18,863 nucleotides of DNA from an uncultured Verrucomicrobiota bacterium (GTDB lineage Bacteria > Verrucomicrobiota > Verrucomicrobiia > Chthoniobacterales > SZAS-18), in contig CALMVM010000567.1 of assembly GCA_937873255.1 (NCBI GenBank), positions 1 through 18,863 on the forward strand, read 5' to 3'. This document shows positions 5,933-18,863 of the stretch, piece after piece. A model generated the notes under the pieces. It saw only the letters and a program-made list of their open reading frames with translations, was not told the origin of the DNA and did no database searches. Position 1 is the stretch's first letter; each line of letters opens with the position of its first letter. The translations under genes and the position numbers were made by a program.

Positions 5933-8900
5933 ATGCCGGAGTCATATAAATACTACGCGTTCATCAGCTACAGCTCGGCCGACAAGCCGTGGGCCGACTG
6001 GTTGAAGCGGCAGTTGGAGCGATACCGTGTACCGAAACGCATTGAGGGATTGCCCGAGGAGGACCGACCACGGCACTTCCGGCCGATCTTTCAAGACCGC
6101 GGCGAGATGCGCTCGTCGTGGAGCTTACAGGAAGTGTTGCAGGAGGCTCTGCGCGACAGCCGCTACCTGATAGTGATTTGCTCGCCGAAGGCCGCCACTT
6201 CGGAATGGGTCAACGAGGAAGTCCGCTTTTTCCGGTCGCTGGGCCGGGCGGAGCGCATTCTCCCGCTCATCGTGGACGGCAGCCCCAATCCGAACGGTGT
6301 CAGCCAGAGCTATTGTTTCCCGCCGGAGTTGCGCGATCTGCGGAGCGCGCAGGACGCAGCGCTCGGCGTCGTGTTACCGGAGGCGAAGCGGGACTCGGTC
6401 GCCGCCGCTGACGCGCGCGACCAGCGCGACGGGCGGGAGGGGGCGCTGTTGCGCATCATCGCCGGGCTGCTGGCGGTCAACATCGAGGCGGTGGTGCAGC
6501 GTGAGAAACGCCGCCGGCTCGTGCGGCGCCTGTGGACGGCGGCGGCGCTGATCCTGGCCGTCGTGCTGGGCGCGTGGGCGTGGGACTACAACCGGGTGAA
6601 AACCGTCTACTACAGTGGTTGGCAGAGCTTCTGGAACATCCCACGGGGAATCCTGCCGCTCTCGCCGGAGGCCCGCGCGCACCGCAACAGCTACCGATTC
6701 ACCTACCAGCGTGGCAAGCTGCGCAAGATCGAGGGAGTCGACGGGACGGGTTACTCGGAGTTCACTTGGGTGCGCAACGATTTGCAGGCGAACCAAGAGG
6801 AGTTCGTCTACCACGACGACGGCCGCTTGGCGGAACAACGCTACCGCAACCACTTTGGCAAGCTGGTGCAAACCGAAAAGTACACGGACGACCTCCTCCA
6901 CTCCAACCTGGTGCGTGAGGAAGACCTGCCTGCCGTGGTGGACGCAAAACTGAGCACGGAAAGCATCCTCAACGGCGTGGCCAAGCTCGATGCGGACATC
7001 AATCCCGTCCGGGGCGACACACGCGTGTCGCGCTACGACATGGAATACGACCGCGACGGGCGGCTGATCGTCTCGCGCTACCAGAAGCCCGACGGCAAGC
7101 CGACCGCCTTGCGCGACGGCACCTACGGCGCGCGCTACGAATACGACGGCAACGGCGACGTCGTGAAAAGCACCTCCTTGGGGCTTGACGGCGGCTCCAC
7201 GGTGGACAACCACGGTGTCGCCAGCACGCTCTCGAAGTACGACGCCCGACACAACCTCGTCGAAAAGACCTTCGTCGGACTGGATGGGCAGCCGGTGATC
7301 GGGGAGGAGGGCTACGCGCGTTGCGTCTACGGGTACGACAGCTGGGGCCGCAACGACCTGGCCGCGTACTTCGACCCGGCCGGGCGGCCGATGGTCCTGC
7401 CCGCCGGGGTCAGCAGCTTCCTGGAGGTTTACGACGACGCGGGCAAGGTAGCGGAATTCCGCTACCTCGACGCCGCGGGGAAACCGGTGGTCACCACCGA
7501 GGGGCATGCCATCCGGCACATGGAACACAACGTGCGCGGCCACATCACCCGCCTCAGCTACTTCGATCCGGCCGGTGCCCCGATCCTCAACGCCGACGGT
7601 TACGCCGTCGTGATCACCGAACGGGACGTGAACGGCAACCCGGTGCGCACGCGCTACCTCGGGGCCAAGGGCGAGCCGGTGGCCAACGACGGAGCCTACG
7701 AGATCGTGCGCCGTTTCGACGGGCATGGCAACACGCTCTTCGAGCAGTACCTTGATGCCCAAGGCGAACCGGCTGGCGGCAAGAGCGGCTACGCCACGGT
7801 GGAATGGCGCTACGATGAGCGCGACCGCGTCACCGAGCAGCGCTGGTTGGACGCCGCAGGGAAGCTGACGGCCCCCACCGACGAGAACGGGGTGGCGCTC
7901 CGACGGACCCACTACAACGACGAAGACCATTCCATGGCCGAACAGGACTTCGATGCCTCGGACCAGCCGACTCTCGGTTTCAGCGGGGCTTTTGACGCGC
8001 GCCTTAAAATGTCCAGGTTCGGCCTCCCGGAGGAAGCCGCCTGTTTCGACCGCCATGGCGAGCCGGCGCTGAACAAGCTCGGCTTCTGGAAGATGACCCA
8101 GCAGTTCGACGAAGCGGGACACATCGTGGACATCGCGTACTTCGGCAAGCGCGGCGAACCCGTCATCCAGTTGCAGGATAAAACCCACCGGACCCGGGCG
8201 ACCTTCGATCAGGCCGGCCAGCTTGCCTCCGTCTGTTGCCTCGACACCGCGGATGCCCCAGCACCGGACAAATCCGGCCACGCCGAGACGCGCTACCGCT
8301 ACGACGCCCGGGGTTGGATGATCGCCGAGGATTATTTCGACGGCCTCGGACACCCCGCGAACAACCTGAGCGGGGTGGCGGGCTACCGCTACGAATTCGA
8401 CGGACGGCACAATATTGTGTCGATGACGAGTGTGGATGGCGCCGGACAACCGATGAGCGGCAAGGAAGGTCGCACCCGTATCGAAAGTGCTTATAACGAG
8501 CGTAACCAAATCACGCGCATGCGATTCTTCGACGCGGCCGGCCAGCCAACGATCTCCTCAAGCGGCTTTCATCGCGTGGATACGCAGTACGACCCGGCGG
8601 GACGGACCGAGGAGCGGACGTTCTACGGGGTGGACGACCGACGCTGCTTCGCCAGCCAGGATCTGGCCGAGGCGTTCGGCGAGGAGAAAAACAAGCTCGG
8701 CAACGCCGTGGCGTTCCTCTCGTCCATCCGCAACGAGTACGACCGCTTCGGGCGGACCGTCTCCACGCGCAGCTTCGGGACGAATGACGAACCCGTGCCG
8801 GGCTTTGGCGGCGCGCACCGGATCAGGAACGACTACAACGAAAAGGGCCTTGTATCCCGCACGAATTTCCTGGACGACCGGGGCATGCTCACGCTGTCGC

Positions 8901-10237
8901 TAGTTGGCTACGCCGCGTGCGAGACCATCTACGACGAGAAAGGGTCGGCCGCCGAAGTACGTTACTTCGGTGCCGACGGGGAACGGATGATCGCCATCGA
9001 CGCACAATCCGGCGTGGCGTGCGCGAGCATCCGGATCGCCAATGACGACCACGGTCGGCCGGTGCGTTTCACGCTGCTGGATGAGCAGGGAAAGCCCTTC
9101 CAGAGCAATGTGCACGCGTCCGAAATCCGCAAGAAGTACGACGCGCGCGGCAACGAAACCGAGATCGCGTTTTTCGGACTGGACGGCCGCCCGGTTGATT
9201 CGAGCCTCGGCTATTCCATACAGAAATCCGAGTACGATGGTCTGGGCAATGTTGTCCGGGCGAGCATCTACGACGCTCAGGGACGCCTGATCGCGATGGC
9301 CCCGAAGCACTCGATCACGACCTACAAAAACAACGCCGCCGGTCAGACGACCGAGATGCAGTGCTTGGACGAGCACGGCGAGCCGGGGGAGGACGAAAAC
9401 CACGTGTCGCGCATGGAAGCGGATTACGACCCCGCCGGCCGGGAGGTCGGCCGGCGCTACTTCGACGTGGCGGGTCGGCTCGTCGCCGGGGAGGGAGGCT
9501 ACGCGGCATCCCGCGCACGGTACGACGCGGCCGGCCAGTTGGTGAGCCAGCAGTATTTCTCGGCGAGGGAGGAACTCCTGAACGTGCCGCAACTCGGCTA
9601 CGCCCAGCAGGAATACACGTATGACCCGAGCCATCGCATGACGGAAACCCGCTGTCTCGACACGGCAGGAAAACTGGTCAACAGCGCCTCCGGAGTCGCC
9701 CGCACGGTCGAAAACTTCACCGCCACCGGCTCGGAGGCCGCGTGCTTTGACGCCACCGGCAAGCCAGTCAACGGGGAACAGGGCTGGGCGCGGCGGGTCC
9801 GTTACAACTCTGTCAACGGGCAGCCCGACCGGGAATTGACCTTCGATGCCGACGGGCGCGCTATGCTCGGCGGAATGGTCATCAAGGAATGTTTGCCATT
9901 CGGCAGCGCGCAGGCGCTCGGCTTGCGGCCCGGGGACATCGTCCTACGCATCGGCCCGTGGTCGGTCCTCGACGAGGGGGTCTACTCCTTCGCTTGGCGC
10001 CTGCTCCGTTTCGCGATCAGCCGCGTTTCCAGCAAGGAGCCGCAGCCCGCCTTGGTCTATCGTGATGGCGAACTTCTCCGGGTCACGGTGCCGCCTGGCT
10101 TACTCGGCGCGAACATGCAAGACCAGTGCCTGCCGAAGGATCAGGTAGCGACTCTACTCACAGAAGTGTCGATTTCAAAGCCGCAATCTTCGCAGCCGGC
10201 AACCGCCGCCAAACTGCGCCGGAGTTCGAGAAAATAG
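5933..10237 (+). CDS. TIR - membrane helix - 32-residue YD-like repeats - PDZ protein
   Basis: The protein has 1434 residues. Residues 5-125 form a TIR domain: YYAFISYSSADKPWADWLKR at the start, RDSRYLIVICSPKAATS, then SEWVNEEV, where E96 aligns with the catalytic glutamate of NAD-cleaving TIR domains (S-x-W-x-x-x-E pattern). The segment ALLRIIAGLLAVNIEAVVQRE (171-191) is typical of bacterial TIR proteins just before a membrane anchor. A hydrophobic helix at about 199-217, flanked by RRR and RR, is the probable single membrane span. From about residue 368 to 1312 come about 28 units of close to 32 residues, consensus YDxxGxxxxxxYLDxxGxP followed by about 7 residues and GYA, recalling RHS/YD repeats but without an RHS core or toxin tip. 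Residues about 1313-1385 look like a PDZ domain (LRPGDIVLRIG). NADase or cyclase activity producing a signal is inferred from the family. If the span has N-in topology, the repeats and PDZ lie outside the cytoplasm and could sense envelope damage or phage. Confidence 0.85.
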   Translation: MPESYKYYAFISYSSADKPWADWLKRQLERYRVPKRIEGLPEEDRPRHFRPIFQDRGEMRSSWSLQEVLQEALRDSRYLIVICSPKAATSEWVNEEVRFFRSLGRAERILPLIVDGSPNPNGVSQSYCFPPELRDLRSAQDAALGVVLPEAKRDSVAAADARDQRDGREGALLRIIAGLLAVNIEAVVQREKRRRLVRRLWTAAALILAVVLGAWAWDYNRVKTVYYSGWQSFWNIPRGILPLSPEARAHRNSYRFTYQRGKLRKIEGVDGTGYSEFTWVRNDLQANQEEFVYHDDGRLAEQRYRNHFGKLVQTEKYTDDLLHSNLVREEDLPAVVDAKLSTESILNGVAKLDADINPVRGDTRVSRYDMEYDRDGRLIVSRYQKPDGKPTALRDGTYGARYEYDGNGDVVKSTSLGLDGGSTVDNHGVASTLSKYDARHNLVEKTFVGLDGQPVIGEEGYARCVYGYDSWGRNDLAAYFDPAGRPMVLPAGVSSFLEVYDDAGKVAEFRYLDAAGKPVVTTEGHAIRHMEHNVRGHITRLSYFDPAGAPILNADGYAVVITERDVNGNPVRTRYLGAKGEPVANDGAYEIVRRFDGHGNTLFEQYLDAQGEPAGGKSGYATVEWRYDERDRVTEQRWLDAAGKLTAPTDENGVALRRTHYNDEDHSMAEQDFDASDQPTLGFSGAFDARLKMSRFGLPEEAACFDRHGEPALNKLGFWKMTQQFDEAGHIVDIAYFGKRGEPVIQLQDKTHRTRATFDQAGQLASVCCLDTADAPAPDKSGHAETRYRYDARGWMIAEDYFDGLGHPANNLSGVAGYRYEFDGRHNIVSMTSVDGAGQPMSGKEGRTRIESAYNERNQITRMRFFDAAGQPTISSSGFHRVDTQYDPAGRTEERTFYGVDDRRCFASQDLAEAFGEEKNKLGNAVAFLSSIRNEYDRFGRTVSTRSFGTNDEPVPGFGGAHRIRNDYNEKGLVSRTNFLDDRGMLTLSLVGYAACETIYDEKGSAAEVRYFGADGERMIAIDAQSGVACASIRIANDDHGRPVRFTLLDEQGKPFQSNVHASEIRKKYDARGNETEIAFFGLDGRPVDSSLGYSIQKSEYDGLGNVVRASIYDAQGRLIAMAPKHSITTYKNNAAGQTTEMQCLDEHGEPGEDENHVSRMEADYDPAGREVGRRYFDVAGRLVAGEGGYAASRARYDAAGQLVSQQYFSAREELLNVPQLGYAQQEYTYDPSHRMTETRCLDTAGKLVNSASGVARTVENFTATGSEAACFDATGKPVNGEQGWARRVRYNSVNGQPDRELTFDADGRAMLGGMVIKECLPFGSAQALGLRPGDIVLRIGPWSVLDEGVYSFAWRLLRFAISRVSSKEPQPALVYRDGELLRVTVPPGLLGANMQDQCLPKDQVATLLTEVSISKPQSSQPATAAKLRRSSRK
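7034..9867 (+). repeat. Tandem 96-nt (32-residue) coding repeat array in the TIR gene
   Basis: Inside the TIR gene I can align about 28 consecutive protein units, most exactly 32 residues (96 nt) long, each beginning with YD, FD or YN and carrying a second [FL]D-x-x-G-x-P turn about 12 residues later. The units are diverged at DNA level, so this is an old protein solenoid and not a recent tandem duplication. One unit near 8581-8730 carries an insertion of roughly 18 residues, and a few others are a residue or more off register. Expect a beta-rich elongated or shell-like structure. Confidence 0.8.
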
Positions 10238-10328: not shown

Positions 10329-10365
10329 CCGTCCATGAGTGGCGGTACGTTCAAGCATCTGCGAA

Positions 10366-13300
10366 ATGCCCGACTTCATCGCCAACGAAAACCGCGACGC
10401 TTGGAATGTCATCCGCGGATACGTCTATCAGGTCGATCTGACTCTCTTACGCTGGCTTAACCTTCCGCCTGGTTCGGTATTGGAATTGGAACGCGGCGAG
10501 GACATTGATCTTGCTCCGGCTGTGATTGATACCGGCGGTCGGGACGAACGCTTATTGGAGCAGATCAAGCACGTCGAGGGGAGCACCCTGACGCTGCGCT
10601 CGGCGCGGGCGGTCGAGGCGATTGCGAACGCCATTGAGCATCGCCAGAAAAACCCGGATTGGAACATCGTCTTTCGCTTTTCGACGAACGCCCGGCCTGG
10701 CCTCGAGCAACTCAGTCCGTTTCGTCCACGGACTGGCGTGCAGGTTTGGGAAGCGATCCGGCGCGGCGATTTGGCGGAAGACGCGTTGCATAATGCTCTC
10801 ACCGGCGTGCGCCAAATCCTCGAAGACGTGCCCCAGCCTGAGGGCATGTCGGAGAATACGTGGAACGGGTTCAAGGCGTTTTTTAACGACACGAATGACG
10901 AGCCGCTCTTTGAACTCATTCGTTCCTTCGAGTGGAGTCCGGGGCAGATCGACGCAGGAAGGGTTTCGGAGCGGGTGATCGAAGCGTTGATCCGCACCGG
11001 GCGGAGCGGTGACCAGCGGGCGGCCCGCGAACTGTACGAGCGGCTGTTCCTGTTCGTCTTCAAATTGCTCACACACCGCGGGACTAAGCGGCTCACCGTC
11101 GATGATTTGGCTGGGCAGGCGGCGCTGCCGACCCTCAGCGCGCACGACCACGACCTGCTGATCCGCTTGCAAGCGCTGTTACACCATCTGGAAGCAAGGG
11201 TGACGAGCCTTGAGCAGTTCGTTGGCCACATGAGTGGCGAGGTGACAGCGATTGCCGCGCAGATGGGCATCCTCAGTCGGCTGACGTTCGGTCCGTCGCC
11301 CCCCATGCTCGACGTACCCGCGCTCGCCGAACAAGCGAGCCTGCGGGCAGCCAACGTCGAATCGATCATGAGCGCCATCAAATCGCACCCCTGGGTGGCC
11401 ATCCACGGAGCGGTTCAGTCGGGCAAGACGCAACTGGCGGTGTTAATCACGCAGGCGGGTTTTGGCGAGATCATCTGGCTGCGCTGCCGGGGAATGAACA
11501 GCGCCACCGCTTGTCGGTTGATCGACGTGGCTCTAGCCATGAAATCGGGGATTGCGCCGACGATTCGGAGGGCGGCGTGGCTCGACCAGGCGTGCCACGC
11601 CTTGGGCGAGAGCACGGCCCTCGTGCTCGATGATCTACCCGGGATCGTGGCTGGGGACGAACTTTGCGAGCGGCTTACCCTGCTGGTCCAATCGTGCGAC
11701 CGCGCGGGAGTTCATCTCCTAACGTTGTCCGCGCATCCGTTGCCAGAAAGTTTCCGCCGTCAGATCGGGAACGATCTCCACTTTGAACAGGCGGTTACCC
11801 GCATGACCACCGAGGAAACGCTCGAAATGATGGTCGCCTGCGAAGCGCCTGAGTCGTTCGTACAACCGGGCTGGCCGGAGACGATTACCGCGCTGGGTCA
11901 CTCGCATCCAGGCGTCATCGCCACGATTATTTCGTATTTAAAAGGACAGGGCTGGGAAGCCACCCCGGCGCAGATTGGGGCGCTGTTCCAGCGGGATTAC
12001 GCAACCGGCCCCGACGGTGAGACACTGGATCGGCTGGCCAACACCGTGCAGGACGAACAAACCCGCGAGCTGTTGTACCGCCTCGGCTTGGCTCAGAACG
12101 CCTTCACGTTTGGCGACGTGCAGGCACTGGCTGAAATTCCGCCAGCGGTAAACCGGCCACGCGAGCGTTTGCGCGCGCTGTCCGGCCTCTGGGTGCAGGG
12201 TGAGCAGGACAGGTGGCAAGTTTCCGCCCTCGTCCGTGGTTTGGGGGAAAGCGACCTCGAACCGGAAACGCGCCGGGGCTGTTTTCGCGTGCTTGCGGAG
12301 CGGATCACGCGCCGGGAAAGCATGAGCCAGTTTCAGGCGCTCCAGGCCTTCATCTATTTCCGGCGGGCAGACGAATACGAACGAGGCGCAGCCATCCACG
12401 CGCTGTTGCTTTCCGACTTCCTGGTCCGCGAAGCGCAGGAGGAGGAAGCCCAGCTGGTGCTCGCCGTGCTCAACGACAAGCCTCTCGAAACACAGATCAG
12501 CCTTGGACTGCGGATTTATATCCGCAGCATGCAGATCGCTTTGTTCAAGAAATACGGGCGGGCGACCGGCTTCCTGGTAAACGATCTCGATGGTCTCATG
12601 CAGCAGACGGACCGCAGTCACGGGTCTGCCATCCTCGCGGCGGCCGTGCTAGCGGGTCCGGCCATCCTCGAAACTCGTCCCGCGAGCACGTTTGCATACT
12701 TGCGCCAGGCTTTCGAGGCGGAGGTCGAGATGCCGAACGGTGAGGATTCGCCCTTCCCGCCGGGTTTTGCACCGGATGCGGGCTTGATCTGGACGATGCT
12801 GGCGAACGTGCGGACGGCTGATGCCCTGCGTGCCTGGCTCGACTTTTACGAGCAACTGTCTCCCGAGCGTCGGCAAAGGGTGGCGTCAGGCGGCTGGGCT
12901 CAGACCGGTGCCATGGCTTTCGCCGGCAGACTGCTGACGGTGGAATGGGCAAAGCCGGAACCCGACCGGGAGTGGCGCGCTGTTTCCACGGTTCTCGAAG
13001 AGTTTGCCGCGCATGCCAACCGGCTTGGATTTGATTTGCTTTGGAGCAATCTGAGAAGGTCGCACCTGATTATGCTGGCCGAGATCGAAGGCGACTTGGA
13101 CGGCGCGGTGGAACTGGCCCGCGCCAGCCTCGCGGGAAAGCCGGATGATCCTCTGGTTACCTTCTTGATCGCCGAGTACATCGGTGAACGATACTGCGCG
13201 GCAGGGAACATGACCGAGGCAACGAGATGGCTCGACCTGGCGCTGGCTTCCCAAACGGACGCCTACCCGTCCCTTCGTTCCCGGGGTCTGCTTCACGCGA

Positions 13301-14613
13301 GTTGGGCCGGTGCCAGCACCGATCCTAAGAAATCGGTGGCTCAAGCGCAGTCTGCGGTCGGGGAGGCGCGCCGGGCCGTGGACCTGCCACCCACGGAGAC
13401 GATCCGCGCGTTGGCGGAACTGGCCGTCGCCTTGTGGGCGTCCGGGGAATCCATGACGGTTGTATTCCGCACGTGGGACCGCGCCGCAGAGGAATTGTTT
13501 GCTGCTCGCGACGACGGCCGGGAATGGAAGTCGTTCTTCGTGCCGTTCGCACACGTCACGGGATATTTCGGTGCTTTGGCGCTCAATGGGCGACCGTTGG
13601 AGCGCACCGCCGACGGCAGGAGTTACCGGGCGCCGGAACCAGGGATGTTTCTGCGCGAGCCGCCGGGAGTCGAAGTGCTCCACACGCGGAACATGGAATT
13701 GGCCGTGCTCGCTCATCTTTCCACGTTTGCACGCGCGGCGGAAGACGCCGAGCGTGCGCGGGATTGGATGCTGCGCGGGCTGGAGGCGGATCGCGGGTGG
13801 CCCGAGTCACTGGGTGCGGCGAAACTCGGTTTCGACCATGTTCCTTATCTCGTCGAAGAACACCGGTTCTCGGACGCACTGGATGGCGCTATGAGGTTTG
13901 CCGTCGTTGCCGTGGCTAGCCCGCTGCTCACAGTCGCCGGGGCTGATCTGATGTCCGAGGCCGTAGATTTCCGGGCGGCGCTGGGTGATCGTCGAGGCGG
14001 ACCTTGGGCGCAGGCAGAAACCCTCGCGTTTCAAAACGCCATGTGGCCAGTGGCGGTCCATCTCTGCCAGACGGCGCTGACCGACCGGGTCGAAGCCCAA
14101 CGTCACGCCAGCGACCTGGCGCGGCTCTGTCGTTCGCAGGCACCGGGGTCGGCGGTGCCGGAGTTGTGGGACGAGGCCGCGTCCCTATTTGAAACCTTTT
14201 TGGACACAGCCGCCACACCCGATGTTTTAATTGCGCGGAGCAATGCATTGGCGGGGGCGGGAAATCAAGATGTCGCCGTGCTGGCATGCCTGTTTGCCTC
14301 GGTCCACCCGGCGGTCCGGTTGGCCGATGCACTCCGGCTGCACCTGTACGTCACCCCATTGGTCGCCCGGAACGTGCCCGTGACCCTACAGATTTCTCGT
14401 GGTGGTGGGATCACTGATTTTCTGCTTCGATTCTGGCGCGGTCGCTTCGACGGCGGACGGTTCAACTTCCGAAAGCCGGGCGACGTGGACCGCCAACTCG
14501 CGGGCGTGACCGCGCAGCCGGCGGACCGTCAGAACAAGGTTCTTCTAAGAACCATCGCCAATGGACTCGGGCAGGACCTACCTCCCGGCGCGGACTCCTG
14601 GCTCGATTCCTGA
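10366..14613 (+). CDS. Avs-like STAND NTPase with N-terminal Cap4-type nuclease
   Basis: The protein has 1415 residues from ATG 10366; an in-frame GTG at 10339 would add 9 and neither has a clear ribosome site. Residues about 8-210 match the Cap4/DUF4297 nuclease type: WNVIRGYVYQVDLTLLRWL, LELERGEDIDL (39-49, acidic active-site residues such as E42, D46 and D48) and LEQIKH (64-69) supplying the Q-x-K of this PD-(D/E)xK variant. A P-loop NTPase follows with Walker A GAVQSGKT (348-355) and Walker B ALVLDD (418-423). The remaining roughly 900 residues are helical and Ala/Leu-rich, as in TPR-like sensor regions. Known Avs proteins of this size bind a phage protein through the C-terminal repeats, oligomerise through the STAND ATPase and degrade DNA with the N-terminal nuclease. 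I infer the same here. It stands alone, about 130 nt after the TIR gene and convergent with mazF. The exact Avs subtype cannot be assigned by eye. Confidence 0.85.
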   Translation: MPDFIANENRDAWNVIRGYVYQVDLTLLRWLNLPPGSVLELERGEDIDLAPAVIDTGGRDERLLEQIKHVEGSTLTLRSARAVEAIANAIEHRQKNPDWNIVFRFSTNARPGLEQLSPFRPRTGVQVWEAIRRGDLAEDALHNALTGVRQILEDVPQPEGMSENTWNGFKAFFNDTNDEPLFELIRSFEWSPGQIDAGRVSERVIEALIRTGRSGDQRAARELYERLFLFVFKLLTHRGTKRLTVDDLAGQAALPTLSAHDHDLLIRLQALLHHLEARVTSLEQFVGHMSGEVTAIAAQMGILSRLTFGPSPPMLDVPALAEQASLRAANVESIMSAIKSHPWVAIHGAVQSGKTQLAVLITQAGFGEIIWLRCRGMNSATACRLIDVALAMKSGIAPTIRRAAWLDQACHALGESTALVLDDLPGIVAGDELCERLTLLVQSCDRAGVHLLTLSAHPLPESFRRQIGNDLHFEQAVTRMTTEETLEMMVACEAPESFVQPGWPETITALGHSHPGVIATIISYLKGQGWEATPAQIGALFQRDYATGPDGETLDRLANTVQDEQTRELLYRLGLAQNAFTFGDVQALAEIPPAVNRPRERLRALSGLWVQGEQDRWQVSALVRGLGESDLEPETRRGCFRVLAERITRRESMSQFQALQAFIYFRRADEYERGAAIHALLLSDFLVREAQEEEAQLVLAVLNDKPLETQISLGLRIYIRSMQIALFKKYGRATGFLVNDLDGLMQQTDRSHGSAILAAAVLAGPAILETRPASTFAYLRQAFEAEVEMPNGEDSPFPPGFAPDAGLIWTMLANVRTADALRAWLDFYEQLSPERRQRVASGGWAQTGAMAFAGRLLTVEWAKPEPDREWRAVSTVLEEFAAHANRLGFDLLWSNLRRSHLIMLAEIEGDLDGAVELARASLAGKPDDPLVTFLIAEYIGERYCAAGNMTEATRWLDLALASQTDAYPSLRSRGLLHASWAGASTDPKKSVAQAQSAVGEARRAVDLPPTETIRALAELAVALWASGESMTVVFRTWDRAAEELFAARDDGREWKSFFVPFAHVTGYFGALALNGRPLERTADGRSYRAPEPGMFLREPPGVEVLHTRNMELAVLAHLSTFARAAEDAERARDWMLRGLEADRGWPESLGAAKLGFDHVPYLVEEHRFSDALDGAMRFAVVAVASPLLTVAGADLMSEAVDFRAALGDRRGGPWAQAETLAFQNAMWPVAVHLCQTALTDRVEAQRHASDLARLCRSQAPGSAVPELWDEAASLFETFLDTAATPDVLIARSNALAGAGNQDVAVLACLFASVHPAVRLADALRLHLYVTPLVARNVPVTLQISRGGGITDFLLRFWRGRFDGGRFNFRKPGDVDRQLAGVTAQPADRQNKVLLRTIANGLGQDLPPGADSWLDS

Positions 14614-14761: not shown

Positions 14762-15109
14762 TTACTGGTACTCGACCACCGCCGCGACAGCAGCGGCAAC
14801 CTCCTCCATCATGGTTGCATTGAGCGATCCAAGCTGTCGGGTAAATCGACGCACATCCACGCCTCGCATCTGTAGCAGATCGACGGCGGAGCGTTTAGCG
14901 AGGCCGTTTTGGGGAGTTGGAAGCAGCGACACATGCCAGAAGTTCTGTTCGAAGTGCGCCTTCCACTCTGTCAAGGGAGCGATCAAGCGTAGCGGCAAAC
15001 GCCTCAATGCATCTGAACTCACCACCAATGTCGGTCGCGTCTTCTTGATCTCTACCCCAACGGTTGGATCCAAGTTGACCATCCAGATTTCTCCACGCTT
15101 TGGGTCCAT
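14762..15109 (-). CDS. mazF: MazF/PemK-family endoribonuclease toxin
   Basis: The protein has 115 residues, the usual MazF length. It opens with KRGEIWMVNLDPTVGVEIKK and TRPTLVVSSD, the hallmark of the MazF/PemK fold, followed by LIAPLTEW. R25 and T47 correspond to the arginine and threonine that form the active site of family members. Known members cut single-stranded mRNA at short sequence motifs and stop growth. The gene begins 3 nt after the stop of the XRE-peptidase gene on the same strand, so it is translationally coupled and co-regulated with it. No separate MazE, AbrB or ribbon-helix-helix antitoxin gene is present; the C-terminal tail of the upstream protein is the best antitoxin candidate. 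Confidence 0.92.
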   Translation of the reverse strand: MDPKRGEIWMVNLDPTVGVEIKKTRPTLVVSSDALRRLPLRLIAPLTEWKAHFEQNFWHVSLLPTPQNGLAKRSAVDLLQMRGVDVRRFTRQLGSLNATMMEEVAAAVAAVVEYQ

Positions 15110-15112
15110 GAT

Positions 15113-16285
15113 TTATTTGTGGTCGACAAAGTCGCCCCCTCCGATGTCATCGTTTTCAATGAGTTCGTGGTAGTAGCCCTCCAACCGTCGCGCCTGCTCC
15201 TCCAACGCCTGCCGTCGTCTCTCCATAGGCAGTTTCATGAACTCCCGACGACTGACCAGACTGGACTCTTCGGGGCCATTGACGGGCCCGCCGAGCATCT
15301 CGCTGGCCTGTGCGCGGCTGAGCAATCCTTCCGCGAAGGCACGCAGCACGTTCCTTTGGAACCATTCGGGTTTTTCGGCTGGCAGAGGCAGTGGTTCTGC
15401 TTTGCGAAAACCTTGGCGGCTAAAGATCTGGAACCATTGGCGGTAATAAACGTCTGTAATGACTCCTAGCTCGTGCAAGCGGTAAATGAGCGACTGCATG
15501 CTCATGCCGAAGCGCCGTTTGTGGAGGGCTAGCTCCCTCATCGGCAAATGGCTGCGCTTGGTTCCCACCTCTTGAAGCAAGGTCTTGGCTGGCGCCAAAA
15601 AAGCCCCGGCGAAGCGGCGTGCTGCCTTTTCCTCGTCCATCTTCGCGCCCACCTTCATGACGATGTGTGCAACCTCGTGCGCCAAGTTCGAGCGCTGGCG
15701 CTCCCCGGTCAGGTTGCCGCGTGATGCCACGGCCGTGGCTTTGATATTCGACTTCGCATCGCGGGCGATGCCGGAGATGCCGTCGAAATCCTCGCCGGTT
15801 TGGAACTCGATCACATGCACGAAAAAGCTCTCGAGGGTGTTCGTCAAGTTCCCGATCGGATCTTGGCCGAGGTTCCAATACTCGCGGAGTTGATTGGCGG
15901 CTTCCTCCGCCTGCTCGATCGTGTCGACGGAAAATTGCTGCACGCAGAGCGGCGGCGGTGTTGATTTCGTCAGGTCTTGAACGACGACCCGGCGCTCCAA
16001 TTCCAGCTTGAAGCGGCTTTCGATGTGCGCGGAGTCGGTCTTGGTCAGCTTGGCTTTTTTGCGGTAGGCGACGACTTCGATTTGGTAGGTGGGCTCGGCC
16101 CACAGTTGGGCGGCTTTGACATTGAGGGCGGCAGCGAGTTTGGCCAGTACGACTGGGCTGGGCATGCTGAGCCCGCTTTCGTATTTGCTGAGCGCTTGCT
16201 TGGTCACTAGTCCACCCATTTGGGCGGAAAGGGCTTCCAACGAAAAGCCGTGGGCAAGGCGCAGCATTTTGATGCGGTTCTCCAT
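15113..16285 (-). CDS. XRE-HTH / ImmA-IrrE metallopeptidase with antitoxin-like tail
   Basis: The protein has 390 residues from the ATG at 16285. The frame is open to 16396, but that longer start lies upstream of the probable promoter and begins with non-domain sequence. Residues 1-62 are an XRE helix-turn-helix (RIKMLRLAHGFSLEALSAQM, then VTKQALSKYESG). Residues about 150-275 are an ImmA/IrrE-type zinc peptidase with H203-E204-V205-A206-H207, a likely third ligand at E218/E219, and FAGAFLAP. Residues about 312-333 (LRAFAEGLLSRAQASEMLGG) are usual in this family. The last 45 residues (about 346-390: SRREFMKLPMERRRQALEEQ, then LEGYYHEL and a terminal GDFVDH) look like the small antitoxins that precede PIN or MazF toxins. 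It should bind the palindrome in front of it, repress itself and probably the divergent CBASS operon, and bind MazF. Self-cleavage or cleavage in trans on damage is inference by analogy with CapH/CapP and ImmR/ImmA. Confidence 0.85.
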   Translation of the reverse strand: MENRIKMLRLAHGFSLEALSAQMGGLVTKQALSKYESGLSMPSPVVLAKLAAALNVKAAQLWAEPTYQIEVVAYRKKAKLTKTDSAHIESRFKLELERRVVVQDLTKSTPPPLCVQQFSVDTIEQAEEAANQLREYWNLGQDPIGNLTNTLESFFVHVIEFQTGEDFDGISGIARDAKSNIKATAVASRGNLTGERQRSNLAHEVAHIVMKVGAKMDEEKAARRFAGAFLAPAKTLLQEVGTKRSHLPMRELALHKRRFGMSMQSLIYRLHELGVITDVYYRQWFQIFSRQGFRKAEPLPLPAEKPEWFQRNVLRAFAEGLLSRAQASEMLGGPVNGPEESSLVSRREFMKLPMERRRQALEEQARRLEGYYHELIENDDIGGGDFVDHK

Positions 16286-16316
16286 AAAATTTGGGGGGAT
16301 GTTTTGGAAAGCCCGG

Positions 16317-16347
16317 TTGACAAAATATCCAGCTGGATGCCTATTTG
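16317..16347 (+). promoter_or_regulatory. Probable promoter of the CBASS operon
   Basis: On the plus strand TTGACA (16317-16322) has a perfect -35 but only weak -10 candidates: CCTATT at 16340-16345 (17-nt spacing) or TATTTG at 16342-16347 (19-nt spacing). A strong -35 with a poor -10 suits a promoter kept low by default. The first gene starts at 16390 with AAAGGA at 16371-16376. Confidence 0.4.
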
Positions 16348-16351
16348 TCAA
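16322..16351 (-). promoter_or_regulatory. Sigma70-like promoter of the XRE-mazF operon
   Basis: On the minus strand TTGACA (16351-16346) is followed after 18 nt by TATTTT (16327-16322). This places the transcript start near 16315, about 30 nt before the ATG at 16285. There is no clear ribosome site in the leader. Confidence 0.5.
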
Positions 16352-16389
16352 CTGAAGGTTCCAGATCAAGAAAGGATACGAAAACCACC

Positions 16390-16630: not shown

Positions 16631-17569
16631 ATGTTGAACAATACCCAACTGCGATATTTCGACAGTCAAGTGCTTCGGCTGCCGCGTGAAACGCGGACGG
16701 AGTACCACGGACAGGTGGACCGGCTCATCAAGAATCTGTCTGCCAGCGTCAAAGACAACACGAAGATCAAGGTCACCCGCGTGGTGAAGGCTGGATCGTT
16801 CGCCAAGTTCACGATCTTGCGCAAGTCACCGACCGACCCGGTGGATGTGGACTTGGTCTTCTATGTGTGCGGCAAGAGCGTCGCGGAATCATCCTACGAG
16901 AGTCTCAGCCAAGACATTTACGACCTGCTTGTCGAGCTCTACCCCAACAAATCGGTCGAAGATTTCGTCATCCAAAAGCGGGCGGCCACGGTCGAGTTCA
17001 AGGGCTCGGGTTTGCTGGTGGACATCGTGCCCGTCGTCGAAATTCCCGACGAGCCGGGGCAGGGCTACCAGTTTGGCACGGACGGTTCGAAGACGAAAAC
17101 CTGCGCGCCGTGCCAGATCGACTTCGTCAAAACCCGCAAAAATGCGGACAGCGACTACCGCACATTGGTGCGCTTGGGCAAGAAGTGGCGCAACTACAAA
17201 GAGGTCAAGGGACTAAAGTCCTTTCACATCGAACTGATCCTGGCTTACCTCCAAGACCGCGACGGCCCGTGCGAGCGGATCGAGCAGCGGTTGTGCGACT
17301 TTTTCCTCTACATCGCCCAATCCGGCCTCGAAGAAGAAATTCGTTTTCCGGAGAACGGCCCGGCCACGGTCGTGTTCAGCGAGCCAGTCGTCGTCGTCGA
17401 CCCGGTCAACGATGAGAACAACACAACTTCGCGCATCAGCGAGGAGGAGCGCAAAGCCATCGTCGCGGCAGCGACGGAAGCCTGGGAAACTGCGCACCAC
17501 GCGTCTACCGAGGACGATCCCCAAGTCTGGAAGGAACTCTTCGGGCCGAAATTCAAAACGGAGGATTAA
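16631..17569 (+). CDS. cdnC: CD-NTase, CdnC-like CBASS cyclic-oligonucleotide synthase
   Basis: The protein has 312 residues, normal for the family. The nucleotidyltransferase core shows KAGSFAKFTILRKS (53-66, G55-S56), the metal-binding D72-V-D74 in PVDVDLVFYV, and a third aspartate D131 in LLVDIVPVVE. The C-terminal half has LKSFHIELILAYLQ and VVVDPVNDENN, both typical of the CdnC group that works with HORMA and TRIP13 proteins. E. coli CdnC makes cyclic tri-AMP; the product here cannot be read from sequence. On phage infection the enzyme makes a cyclic oligonucleotide that switches on a killer effector. The gene is followed after 6 nt by the HORMA gene. All catalytic residues are present, so it is probably active. 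Confidence 0.92.
   Translation: MLNNTQLRYFDSQVLRLPRETRTEYHGQVDRLIKNLSASVKDNTKIKVTRVVKAGSFAKFTILRKSPTDPVDVDLVFYVCGKSVAESSYESLSQDIYDLLVELYPNKSVEDFVIQKRAATVEFKGSGLLVDIVPVVEIPDEPGQGYQFGTDGSKTKTCAPCQIDFVKTRKNADSDYRTLVRLGKKWRNYKEVKGLKSFHIELILAYLQDRDGPCERIEQRLCDFFLYIAQSGLEEEIRFPENGPATVVFSEPVVVVDPVNDENNTTSRISEEERKAIVAAATEAWETAHHASTEDDPQVWKELFGPKFKTED
17560..17564 (+). promoter_or_regulatory. Ribosome binding site of the HORMA gene
   Basis: GGAGG lies inside the last codons of the cyclase gene, 11 nt before the ATG at 17576, and fixes that start. Confidence 0.6.
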
Positions 17570-17575
17570 CCCATC

Positions 17576-18070
17576 ATGTCCACGACTTACACTGCTACCG
17601 AAACTTACACCGTCGTCGACGTGGAGAACGCGTTTCGCCGCCTCCGTACCGACCTCTTCATGATCGCCGAAAGCACGGGCGCGATCACGCGTACCGAGGC
17701 CGACGATTACGCGTACGACGCCGAGTACCTGGCCCGACGCAAGTACCTCAAATCCGTCGATGTCACCTTGCTCAGCGGCACCGAGGAGTTGCGCGCCGTG
17801 CGCTACACCATCAACGAGGCGGCCGGCGGCCTAGTATCGTCCCGGCCAGGCGGAACGCTGTGGCCGCGGGTCGCCGGGGCGTGGCTGCGGATCATCCTCT
17901 CCTACACCGTCGCCTACACAGAGGAAAAGAAAGCGGTCACGCGCGGCTCCCTCCGGAACTCTTGGAGTCCCACCCTGGCGGACACTTCCCACCTAGGATT
18001 GAACTCGCTCACGGGCCGCAACTACACGAGCAACGCCTTCGGCTTGGAGCGAAGTGACTTCAGCAAATGA
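17576..18070 (+). CDS. cap7: CBASS HORMA-domain protein (Cap7)
   Basis: The protein has 164 residues. Sequence similarity among bacterial HORMA proteins is low. I make the call from size, from its place between a CdnC-like cyclase and a TRIP13-like ATPase, and from features seen here: an N-terminal helix VENAFRRLRTDLFMIAESTG, the middle segment DYAYDAEYLARRKYLKSVDVTL, and a Ser/Thr/Asn-rich C-terminal part (about 120-164) that could be the mobile safety-belt region. In known type III CBASS the HORMA protein senses a peptide, closes around it, then binds and activates the cyclase. The stop overlaps the next start (ATGA), so it is coupled to cap6. An alternative is another small adaptor, but the context makes that unlikely. 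Confidence 0.8.
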   Translation: MSTTYTATETYTVVDVENAFRRLRTDLFMIAESTGAITRTEADDYAYDAEYLARRKYLKSVDVTLLSGTEELRAVRYTINEAAGGLVSSRPGGTLWPRVAGAWLRIILSYTVAYTEEKKAVTRGSLRNSWSPTLADTSHLGLNSLTGRNYTSNAFGLERSDFSK

Positions 18071-18863
18071 CAACAGATTCTGTTTTCGATCACGAGGTCT
18101 CGCTGCCCGACGACGATCTGACATGCAAAGCGCAGGGTCTCGTGGGTTTCGAGGGGCGCTACCAAAGGGTGCAGCGGCAACTCCAGTTGCTCCTGCGCCT
18201 GGACGAACTGAGCGACTGGGGCAAACGGCACCACGGCCGCAAGGACCTGCCCTTGTGCCACCTGATCGCCGAGCAGTACCCGCTGGTCATTTTCTACGGG
18301 GACGTGGGCACGGGCAAAACGGCCACCGCCGAGTGCATCGCCAACCGGCTGGCCACCGAGGCGAGAGTGGAGGATTCGATCCTCTTCAAGCTGGGCAACC
18401 GGGTGCGTGGCAGCGGCAAGGTCGGGGAGATGGGAACGCTCTTGACCGAAGCATTTAAGCGGATTGTGGCCTCGGCCGGCAAAAACCGGCGCGCCATCTT
18501 GGTGATCGATGAAGGCGATTCGTTGGCCGCCAAGCGTTCCCAGGAACACAGCCACCACGAGGACAAGGTAGCCGTCAACACGTTGATCCAAAGCATCGAC
18601 AATTTACGCAAGCTGGGAGGCAGGGTCGTGACGATTCTCTGCACCAACCGTCTCTCGGTCGTAGATCCAGCGGTCCGTCGACGCGCGGCGGTCGTCGAGG
18701 AATTCACCCGACCCACGGCCGACGAGCGCCAACAGCTCTTCGAGGCAGATTTGGCTGGGTTGGACCTTTCGGTGGCCCAGTTAACGGGGTTGATCGAACA
18801 GACCGGTCCGCAGGGAAAGCGGCCTGGGTGGACGTATTCGGACCTCCGCGCCCGGCTCTACCC
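18067..18863 (+). CDS. cap6: TRIP13/Pch2-like AAA+ ATPase (Cap6), 3' end outside window
   Basis: The frame is open from ATG 18067 to the right edge, 265 complete codons; relatives are usually about 300 residues, so only the end is missing. Visible motifs: Walker A GDVGTGKT (78-85), Walker B ILVIDE (144-149), a sensor-1 Asn in TILCTN (N194) and an arginine-finger region PAVRRR (201-206). The N-terminal part is short, as in bacterial TRIP13 proteins that lack the eukaryotic N-domain extension. Known role: ATP-driven unfolding of the HORMA N-terminus, opening the HORMA-cyclase complex and keeping CBASS off without infection. It starts inside the HORMA stop codon (ATGA overlap). The next gene, outside this window, is expected to be the effector. 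Confidence 0.92.
   Translation, partial: MTTDSVFDHEVSLPDDDLTCKAQGLVGFEGRYQRVQRQLQLLLRLDELSDWGKRHHGRKDLPLCHLIAEQYPLVIFYGDVGTGKTATAECIANRLATEARVEDSILFKLGNRVRGSGKVGEMGTLLTEAFKRIVASAGKNRRAILVIDEGDSLAAKRSQEHSHHEDKVAVNTLIQSIDNLRKLGGRVVTILCTNRLSVVDPAVRRRAAVVEEFTRPTADERQQLFEADLAGLDLSVAQLTGLIEQTGPQGKRPGWTYSDLRARLY

Follow-up and report, generated by a model that had tools for sequence, protein, structure and literature searches.

A MazF-associated C-terminal module on an XRE-ImmA protein encoded beside CBASS genes

The last ~45 residues of a fused XRE-ImmA protein form a conserved tail that would very probably neutralise the MazF toxin encoded directly downstream, and this reading is strongly supported by computation. 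We regard the tail as a MazF antitoxin module because it co-occurs with MazF, is carried beside MazF by stand-alone proteins, is naturally fused to MazF and co-diverges with it. The original prediction described the whole protein as a three-part fusion of DNA-binding, protease-like and antitoxin parts, and the same evidence gives this description strong computational support. The window, i.e., the whole stretch of 18,863 nucleotides that we analysed, comes from an uncultured Verrucomicrobiota bacterium, and the gene pair in it is likely a RosmerTA-like toxin-antitoxin (TA) operon and regulator with a toxin-specific C-terminus.

The gene pair and conservation of the tail

The XRE-ImmA gene (15113–16285, minus strand, ATG at 16285) is one fused frame of 390 aa. 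It encodes an HTH_3 domain by Pfam match (residues 5–59; 16109–16273, minus strand) and a Peptidase_M78/ImmA-like domain (residues 191–271; 15473–15715, minus strand) with a HEVAH motif (residues 203–207; 15665–15679, minus strand), of which H203 and E204 were invariant and H207 was conserved at ≥90% in a 75-row alignment. A linker of low model confidence (residues 340–344; 15254–15268, minus strand) connects the core to the putative MazF-antitoxin module, which comprises residues 346–390 and the stop codon (15113–15250, minus strand). The MazF/PemK toxin gene (115 aa; 14762–15109, minus strand; PF02452, E 1.5e-24) lies on the same strand, and the gap between the XRE-ImmA stop, ending at 15113, and the MazF ATG at 15109 is 3 nt. 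An antitoxin-like tail of 45 residues followed at this distance by MazF had been predicted and was confirmed, and relatives in many phyla share the conserved tail. The segment SRREFMKLPMERRRQALEEQ named in that prediction starts at S345, one residue before 15113–15250, and the YYHEL and GDFVDH motifs lie inside the tail. In comparison with PADLOC, the protein matched RmrA, the RosmerTA antitoxin, at E 4e-41, with weak matches to capP and capH (4.6e-6 and 5.3e-5, respectively).

The XRE-ImmA model built from the 75-row alignment had a mean pLDDT of 88.4, with residues 340–344 and 379–390 below 50. The tail was modelled as a short helix (346–350), a long helix (354–378) and a low-confidence end (379–390). 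That is, in this model of the chain alone, the protein is predicted to be a confident core, a flexible link and a helical tail. The sole PDB match under E 0.001 was CapP 7t5t (4.4e-4 over 177 columns; TM 0.28/0.38 in a partial alignment), and searching the PDB with a tail profile yielded nothing above chance level.

An alignment of the window protein with 27 relatives, taken from 120 listed matches of 400 in a protein search, gave the tail consensus ERRAFMKLPLEERRxILAEQA...GGDIxEY. Scanning genome contigs with an alignment query that was itself tail-bearing returned 179 relatives, and we retained the best 80; the same type of scan with a single XRE-ImmA protein as the query confirmed no relatives. 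Similarly, a word-limited search with the window tail alone gave no matches, and a profile of 23 tails was required. At E 0.001, this profile matched XRE-ImmA in 65 of the 80 loci (best 80 of 179) and in the window (L081, left out of locus counts), where it found the copy at E 1.7e-21. The other 15 loci comprise 12 tail-less loci, L036 and two Chloroflexus loci (L067 and L068) with diverged tails that miss the threshold; MazF is also present in both. We consider the tail more than a chance likeness because it is conserved across many phyla and its profile matches the window copy specifically. A comparison of the 23 tails with NCBIfam gave no antitoxin family, and 0/23 matched a MazE model at E 0.1; the XRE-ImmA protein gave no AbrB or MazE match.

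Within the window's phylum, the tail profile matched one of 288 genomes at E 0.001, namely the window itself. A same-order genome outside the match list of these 288 (L082), found with the full alignment among 38 relatives, holds a tail-bearing XRE-ImmA with MazF, and three further loci (L015, L061 and L071) are titled Verrucomicrobia(ta) or Akkermansia. The distribution is patchy; in view of L082, which has the pair, and of these three loci, a recent horizontal gain by the window lineage is not claimed.

Association of the tail with MazF

Among the 65 tail-bearing loci (from the best 80 of 179 relatives), a MazF frame of ≥80 aa was found directly downstream in 59, counting L049, whose MazF frame starts upstream, and L008, L020, L048 and L062, in which MazF looks split or shortened. 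MazF was partial in four others (L010, at a contig end, L015, L053 and L058), and an N-terminal MazF remnant of 16–19 aa was left in L040 and L043. A tailed XRE-ImmA with no toxin partner, the case that would speak against the predicted role, was therefore absent in 65/65 loci when partial genes and remnants are counted, in a sample that is neither independent nor unbiased (tail-bearing seed, best 80 of 179, cores nearly one clade). In the 12 tail-less loci, XRE-ImmA ended near profile position 340 and intact MazF was found in 0/12, L074 having a MazF fragment. In L036, MazF was fused in frame and the tail region was out of frame. A tblastn search with five PIN-like proteins placed a PIN-like gene directly after XRE-ImmA in nine of the 12 tail-less loci (L070, L072, L073, partial, and L075–L080; not L065, L066 or L074), the PIN label being based on a Pfam match of L070 below the cut-off (6.7e-4) and on the annotation that the depositors gave in Mesorhizobium loti. 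In L066 (877–2484), XRE-ImmA has another C-terminus and the gene after it encodes a zeta-like kinase (2.2e-8). We also read six plasmid loci, from 15 records found, starting from MazF. Where MazF was closest to that of the window (two loci; 62.8% and 64.5%, the latter over a partial match), its partner bears the tail; at the four more distant loci (36–44%) it does not (≤5.7 bits).

Co-divergence was assessed in 53 complete pairs, after removal of 28 of 81 loci in which one of the three parts (tail, MazF or core) was not complete or had diverged too far. The correlation with MazF was higher for the tail than for the core (r 0.71 vs. 0.61; partial 0.52 vs. 0.27), and in a 45-residue sliding window the tail scored highest of the whole protein (r 0.68, partial 0.48). 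Permutation reached the tail-MazF correlation in 0/999 cases, a weak control given that permutations break the phylogeny. XRE-ImmA residues 181–240 (15566–15745, around HExxH) showed a partial correlation of 0.41–0.43 with MazF, and given this co-variation the core may take part. The XRE-ImmA core tree split the MazF type from the PIN type with support of 100/99; the cores of MazF-tailed proteins were nearly one clade, and the window's own branch was long.

The tail was also found apart from the XRE-ImmA core. The tail profile matched 28 of 292 cyanobacterial genomes; G044 carried it on an XRE-ImmA and the others on short frames. In the cyanobacterial stand-alone loci (L124–L152), same-strand MazF was near the tail in 23/29, including short matches in L129, L131 and L152. 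The other six (L124 and L143–L147) had no MazF or relic within about 3 kb; L143 and L144 carry stop codons within or close to the tail, and in L146 the tail end is missing. These six may be orphan antitoxins, antitoxins in decay or carriers that act on another target. The N-termini of the stand-alone carriers vary: of ten scanned, L139 matched PhdYeFM (9.4e-13), L127 matched DUF2283 (3.6e-14) and the other eight gave no Pfam match above the cut-off. Matches of the stand-alone carriers to NF050104 were weak and all below the cut-off. A Poribacteria genome with an XRE-ImmA locus (L042) holds a stand-alone carrier with MazF as well (L121); two weak matches (L122 and L123) were excluded from the stand-alone count.

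In Chloroflexota, 8 of 301 genomes matched the tail profile: L153 is a stand-alone carrier with MazF, L154 and L156–L160 are XRE-ImmA with MazF, and L155 has 146 nt remaining past the tail, with no MazF within those. The stand-alone tail of L153 and the XRE-ImmA tail of L155 share 71% identity over 52 aa, which suggests that the module has been exchanged. Among 245 Nitrospirota genomes, 6 matched, and the four newly read all had MazF. Finally, two natural single-protein fusions, P0142 (182 aa) and P0145 (175 aa), which came from a joined tail and MazF query, consist of the helical part of the tail followed by MazF, both without the GGDxxEY-type acidic end. The predicted fold of P0142 was too poor (mean pLDDT 48.5) and was set aside, and mixed tail and MazF alignments were discarded before folding because they placed tails on MazF.

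The operator and the CBASS neighbourhood

A palindromic operator, GTTGACA-N23-TGTCAAC, lies at 16316–16352 and is the single match to the strict pattern in the 5.0-Mb assembly. The predicted xre-immA promoter (16322–16351, minus strand), a consensus match only, has its -35 (TTGACA, 16351–16346) and -10 (TATTTT, 16327–16322) inside this operator. The pattern GGTTGACA-N22-24-TGTCAACC, with ≥13/16 matching, was found upstream in 66 of 76 usable loci, after five of the 81 upstream regions had been set aside for want of a usable start; first-order shuffles gave 0.3 on average and 3 at most. It was missing from ten loci, namely L016, L061 and eight from Poribacteria. The operator is common to loci of the MazF, PIN and zeta types, L066 included. 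The simplest reading of this arrangement is that xre-immA is probably autorepressed at the operator. On the divergent P0242-CBASS side, a consensus promoter search identified no CBASS promoter.

That side begins 37 nt past the operator with P0242 (16390–16560, plus strand), a conserved small gene of 56 aa that is divergent from xre-immA, lies between the operator and the cyclase and matches the PADLOC defence candidate PDC-S38 (1.8e-29). It is followed on the plus strand by the genes for the CBASS oligonucleotide cyclase (CD-NTase; 16631–17569), which starts 278 nt beyond the operator, a HORMA protein (bacHORMA_1; 17576–18070) and a TRIP13-like AAA ATPase (18067–18863), which runs off the window. 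P0242 homologues were found in 57 plasmid records. Of four contexts, those in Marinobacter and Klebsiella have a WYL protein facing the homologue, and the two in Hymenobacter do not. We rejected P0242 as a CBASS-specific part, as homologues in four plasmid records adjoin YegP, DUF1883, DUF4238 or unnamed genes.

Elsewhere in the window, a plus-strand gene at 5933–10237 encodes a 1434-aa protein with an N-terminal TIR_2 match (3e-15), RHS repeats and a weak PDZ match. A 1424-aa frame at 10339–14613 (plus strand) has no Pfam match and an N-terminal match to PADLOC LmuA and DUF4297; it is possibly another defence gene.

The window cyclase matched 83 plasmid records, 37 of them with ≥80% coverage. 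Ten plasmid records of Alphaproteobacteria, which represent three lineages (two Mesorhizobium, one Beijerinckiaceae and seven near-identical Bradyrhizobium), have an XRE-ImmA gene head-to-head with a window-type cyclase, with 221–253 bp between the matches. We read four of the ten; a PIN-like stretch comes next in 4/4, in Bradyrhizobium as two pieces in different frames, and an operator-like GTTTACA-type palindrome is present at 12–13/16, counted without a shuffle control. That is, the window layout recurs with another toxin, as the same CBASS type here stands head-to-head with an XRE-ImmA/PIN pair. Because the MazF and PIN core clades are separate, XRE-ImmA came to lie next to CBASS on at least two occasions, provided that the window is placed correctly in the MazF clade. 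Bradyrhizobium 172 has separate HTH and ImmA genes downstream. Other XRE-ImmA/PIN pairs have different neighbours: in Neotabrizicola the pair faces a multiubiquitin-E2-E1 operon, and in Sphingobium it precedes a TerB/BrxD-like pair. The neighbours of seven MazF-type loci (L010, L018, L030, L041, L046, L050 and L052) matched PADLOC in 7/7, these being drawn from ten picked by look (L033, L024 and L043 left out), which is not an enrichment test. Among PIN-type neighbours, those of L179 matched and those of L178 did not.

The original prediction held that one proteolytic event would free MazF and derepress CBASS together. We consider this joint release plausible, at rather less than an even chance. 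It gains plausibility from the conserved operator in the divergent intergenic region, from P0242 beyond it and from the recurrent XRE-ImmA/PIN-CBASS loci, and is weakened because the CD-NTase, HORMA and TRIP13 genes of the window's CBASS were found in 0/80 of the related loci (best 80 of 179; ≤8 kb fetched per side). A cyclase search of 288 genomes of the window's own phylum likewise found the window only. These absences suit an alternative to which we give close to an even chance, in which XRE-ImmA-MazF is an autonomous addiction or defence module in a defence island, exerting no control over CBASS, which is adjacent by coincidence. It is also favoured by the operator overlapping, by consensus, the xre-immA promoter only, by the distance to the cyclase start, and by four other cyclase records (Klebsiella, Moellerella, Pseudomonas mandelii and Acinetobacter) with no annotated XRE-ImmA upstream. 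However, the ten head-to-head plasmid records, which come from another XRE-ImmA clade, argue against a coincidence, as does the position of P0242, a member of a defence-candidate family with WYL-facing homologues, so close to the operator.

Proposed mechanism and relation to known systems

In the mechanism that we propose, XRE-ImmA and MazF would form a two-gene toxin-antitoxin operon in which the last ~45 residues of XRE-ImmA would be the MazF-neutralising module. By analogy with the MazE tail, described on MazF in the accessible part of PMC12557383, the tail helix and its flexible acidic/aromatic end may lie across the MazF dimer groove. Judging from the conservation of the palindrome at 16316–16352, the HTH domain would use it to repress its own promoter and probably also affects transcription of P0242-CBASS, which diverges from the shared intergenic region. 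The ImmA-like domain is likely a damage sensor or protease, in the manner of CapP, for which activation by ssDNA is known (PMC13373217, in part), and of PprI, an ssDNA-sensing relative according to partial text. When triggered, this domain would inactivate XRE-ImmA, whereupon repression would end and MazF would no longer be held.

The XRE-ImmA core itself might instead neutralise MazF, as is thought for tail-less RmrA antitoxins with other toxins, the tail merely docking or stabilising. The match of the core to RmrA, the pairing of tail-less XRE-ImmA with PIN-like genes and the co-variation of residues 181–240 with MazF are in line with this, as are the RmrA-type antitoxins with unrelated toxins in the available text of PMC10440598. 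However, the tail stands beside MazF on proteins without an XRE-ImmA core and is missing where the neighbour is other than MazF, and we consider the core an improbable neutraliser. It is very improbable that the tail has nothing to do with MazF and serves as a degradation tag or dimerisation extension, as its helical, partly low-confidence model and the six stand-alone carriers without nearby MazF might suggest, since it co-occurs, co-diverges and naturally fuses with MazF.

With the tail taken as the probable MazF antitoxin, the pair resembles RosmerTA (RmrA/RmrT, including RipAB of Streptococcus pneumoniae, which the part of PMC12795458 available assigns to Rosmer) in having XRE and ImmA/M78 in one antitoxin protein and an adjacent toxin gene in the same operon. 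Unlike in RosmerTA, the window toxin is a MazF that has no match among PADLOC families at E 0.01 and is no catalogued RmrT, and the window protein adds a distinct, putative C-terminal MazF-antitoxin module; the accessible portions of the RosmerTA literature do not name MazF as a Rosmer partner. MazEF/PemIK shares the MazF/PemK-fold toxin, the antitoxin gene in first place and the C-terminal helix and flexible end as presumed clamp, whereas the window protein has an XRE-ImmA N-terminus rather than an AbrB-type MazE and its tail is below the curated MazE cut-offs. CapH and CapP, which control CBASS and other immune operons, likewise place an HTH repressor and an ImmA-like protease by CBASS; however, the window has one fused 390-aa protein instead of two genes, and this protein carries a putative antitoxin for the neighbouring toxin. 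CapK/CapS and VapKSC are a damage-responsive family of immune-operon regulators that, in the available text of PMC13373217, also occurs as a TA system with a VapC-like (PIN) toxin. They use kinase/STAS chemistry and, as far as that text goes, keep the two roles in separate loci, whereas the window uses XRE-ImmA and may combine both.

Makarova in 2009 (PMC2701414) reported COG2856-Xre fusions that share predicted operons with PIN or RelE toxins; the accessible part of that paper does not describe the MazF pairing or the tail module. The available text of PMC10440598 presents ImmA antitoxins as a hub with PIN-like partners and states that for one XRE-ImmA antitoxin-toxin pair the complex was not reliably predictable. 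Synechocystis Ssl2245 is described, in a source available in part, as a putative PemK-partner antitoxin with no assigned family. A search for literature on MazF/PemK with ImmA/XRE gave none by title or abstract start, with supplements and most subscription papers outside its scope.

We tentatively suggest that XRE-ImmA may be a chassis with a swappable, toxin-matched C-terminal clip (MazF, PIN or zeta), a constant DNA-binding site and a damage-sensing protease. Placed head-to-head with defence operons (CBASS, Bil-like or other), it might allow one cleavage to activate defence and arm the RNase toxin, and its pairing with CBASS would have arisen at least twice, with different toxins. If true, such a system would serve as alarm and fail-safe at once. 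The accessible part of PMC10440598 does not explain by what means XRE-ImmA antitoxins counter toxins that are unrelated to one another, and a separable toxin-specific C-terminal module would be a simple answer. Through its conserved operator, the XRE-ImmA-MazF locus would connect toxin-antitoxin modules with a possible control of CBASS at the level of transcription, and one protein seems to unite a sensor, a gene switch and a toxin clamp beside a phage-defence operon.
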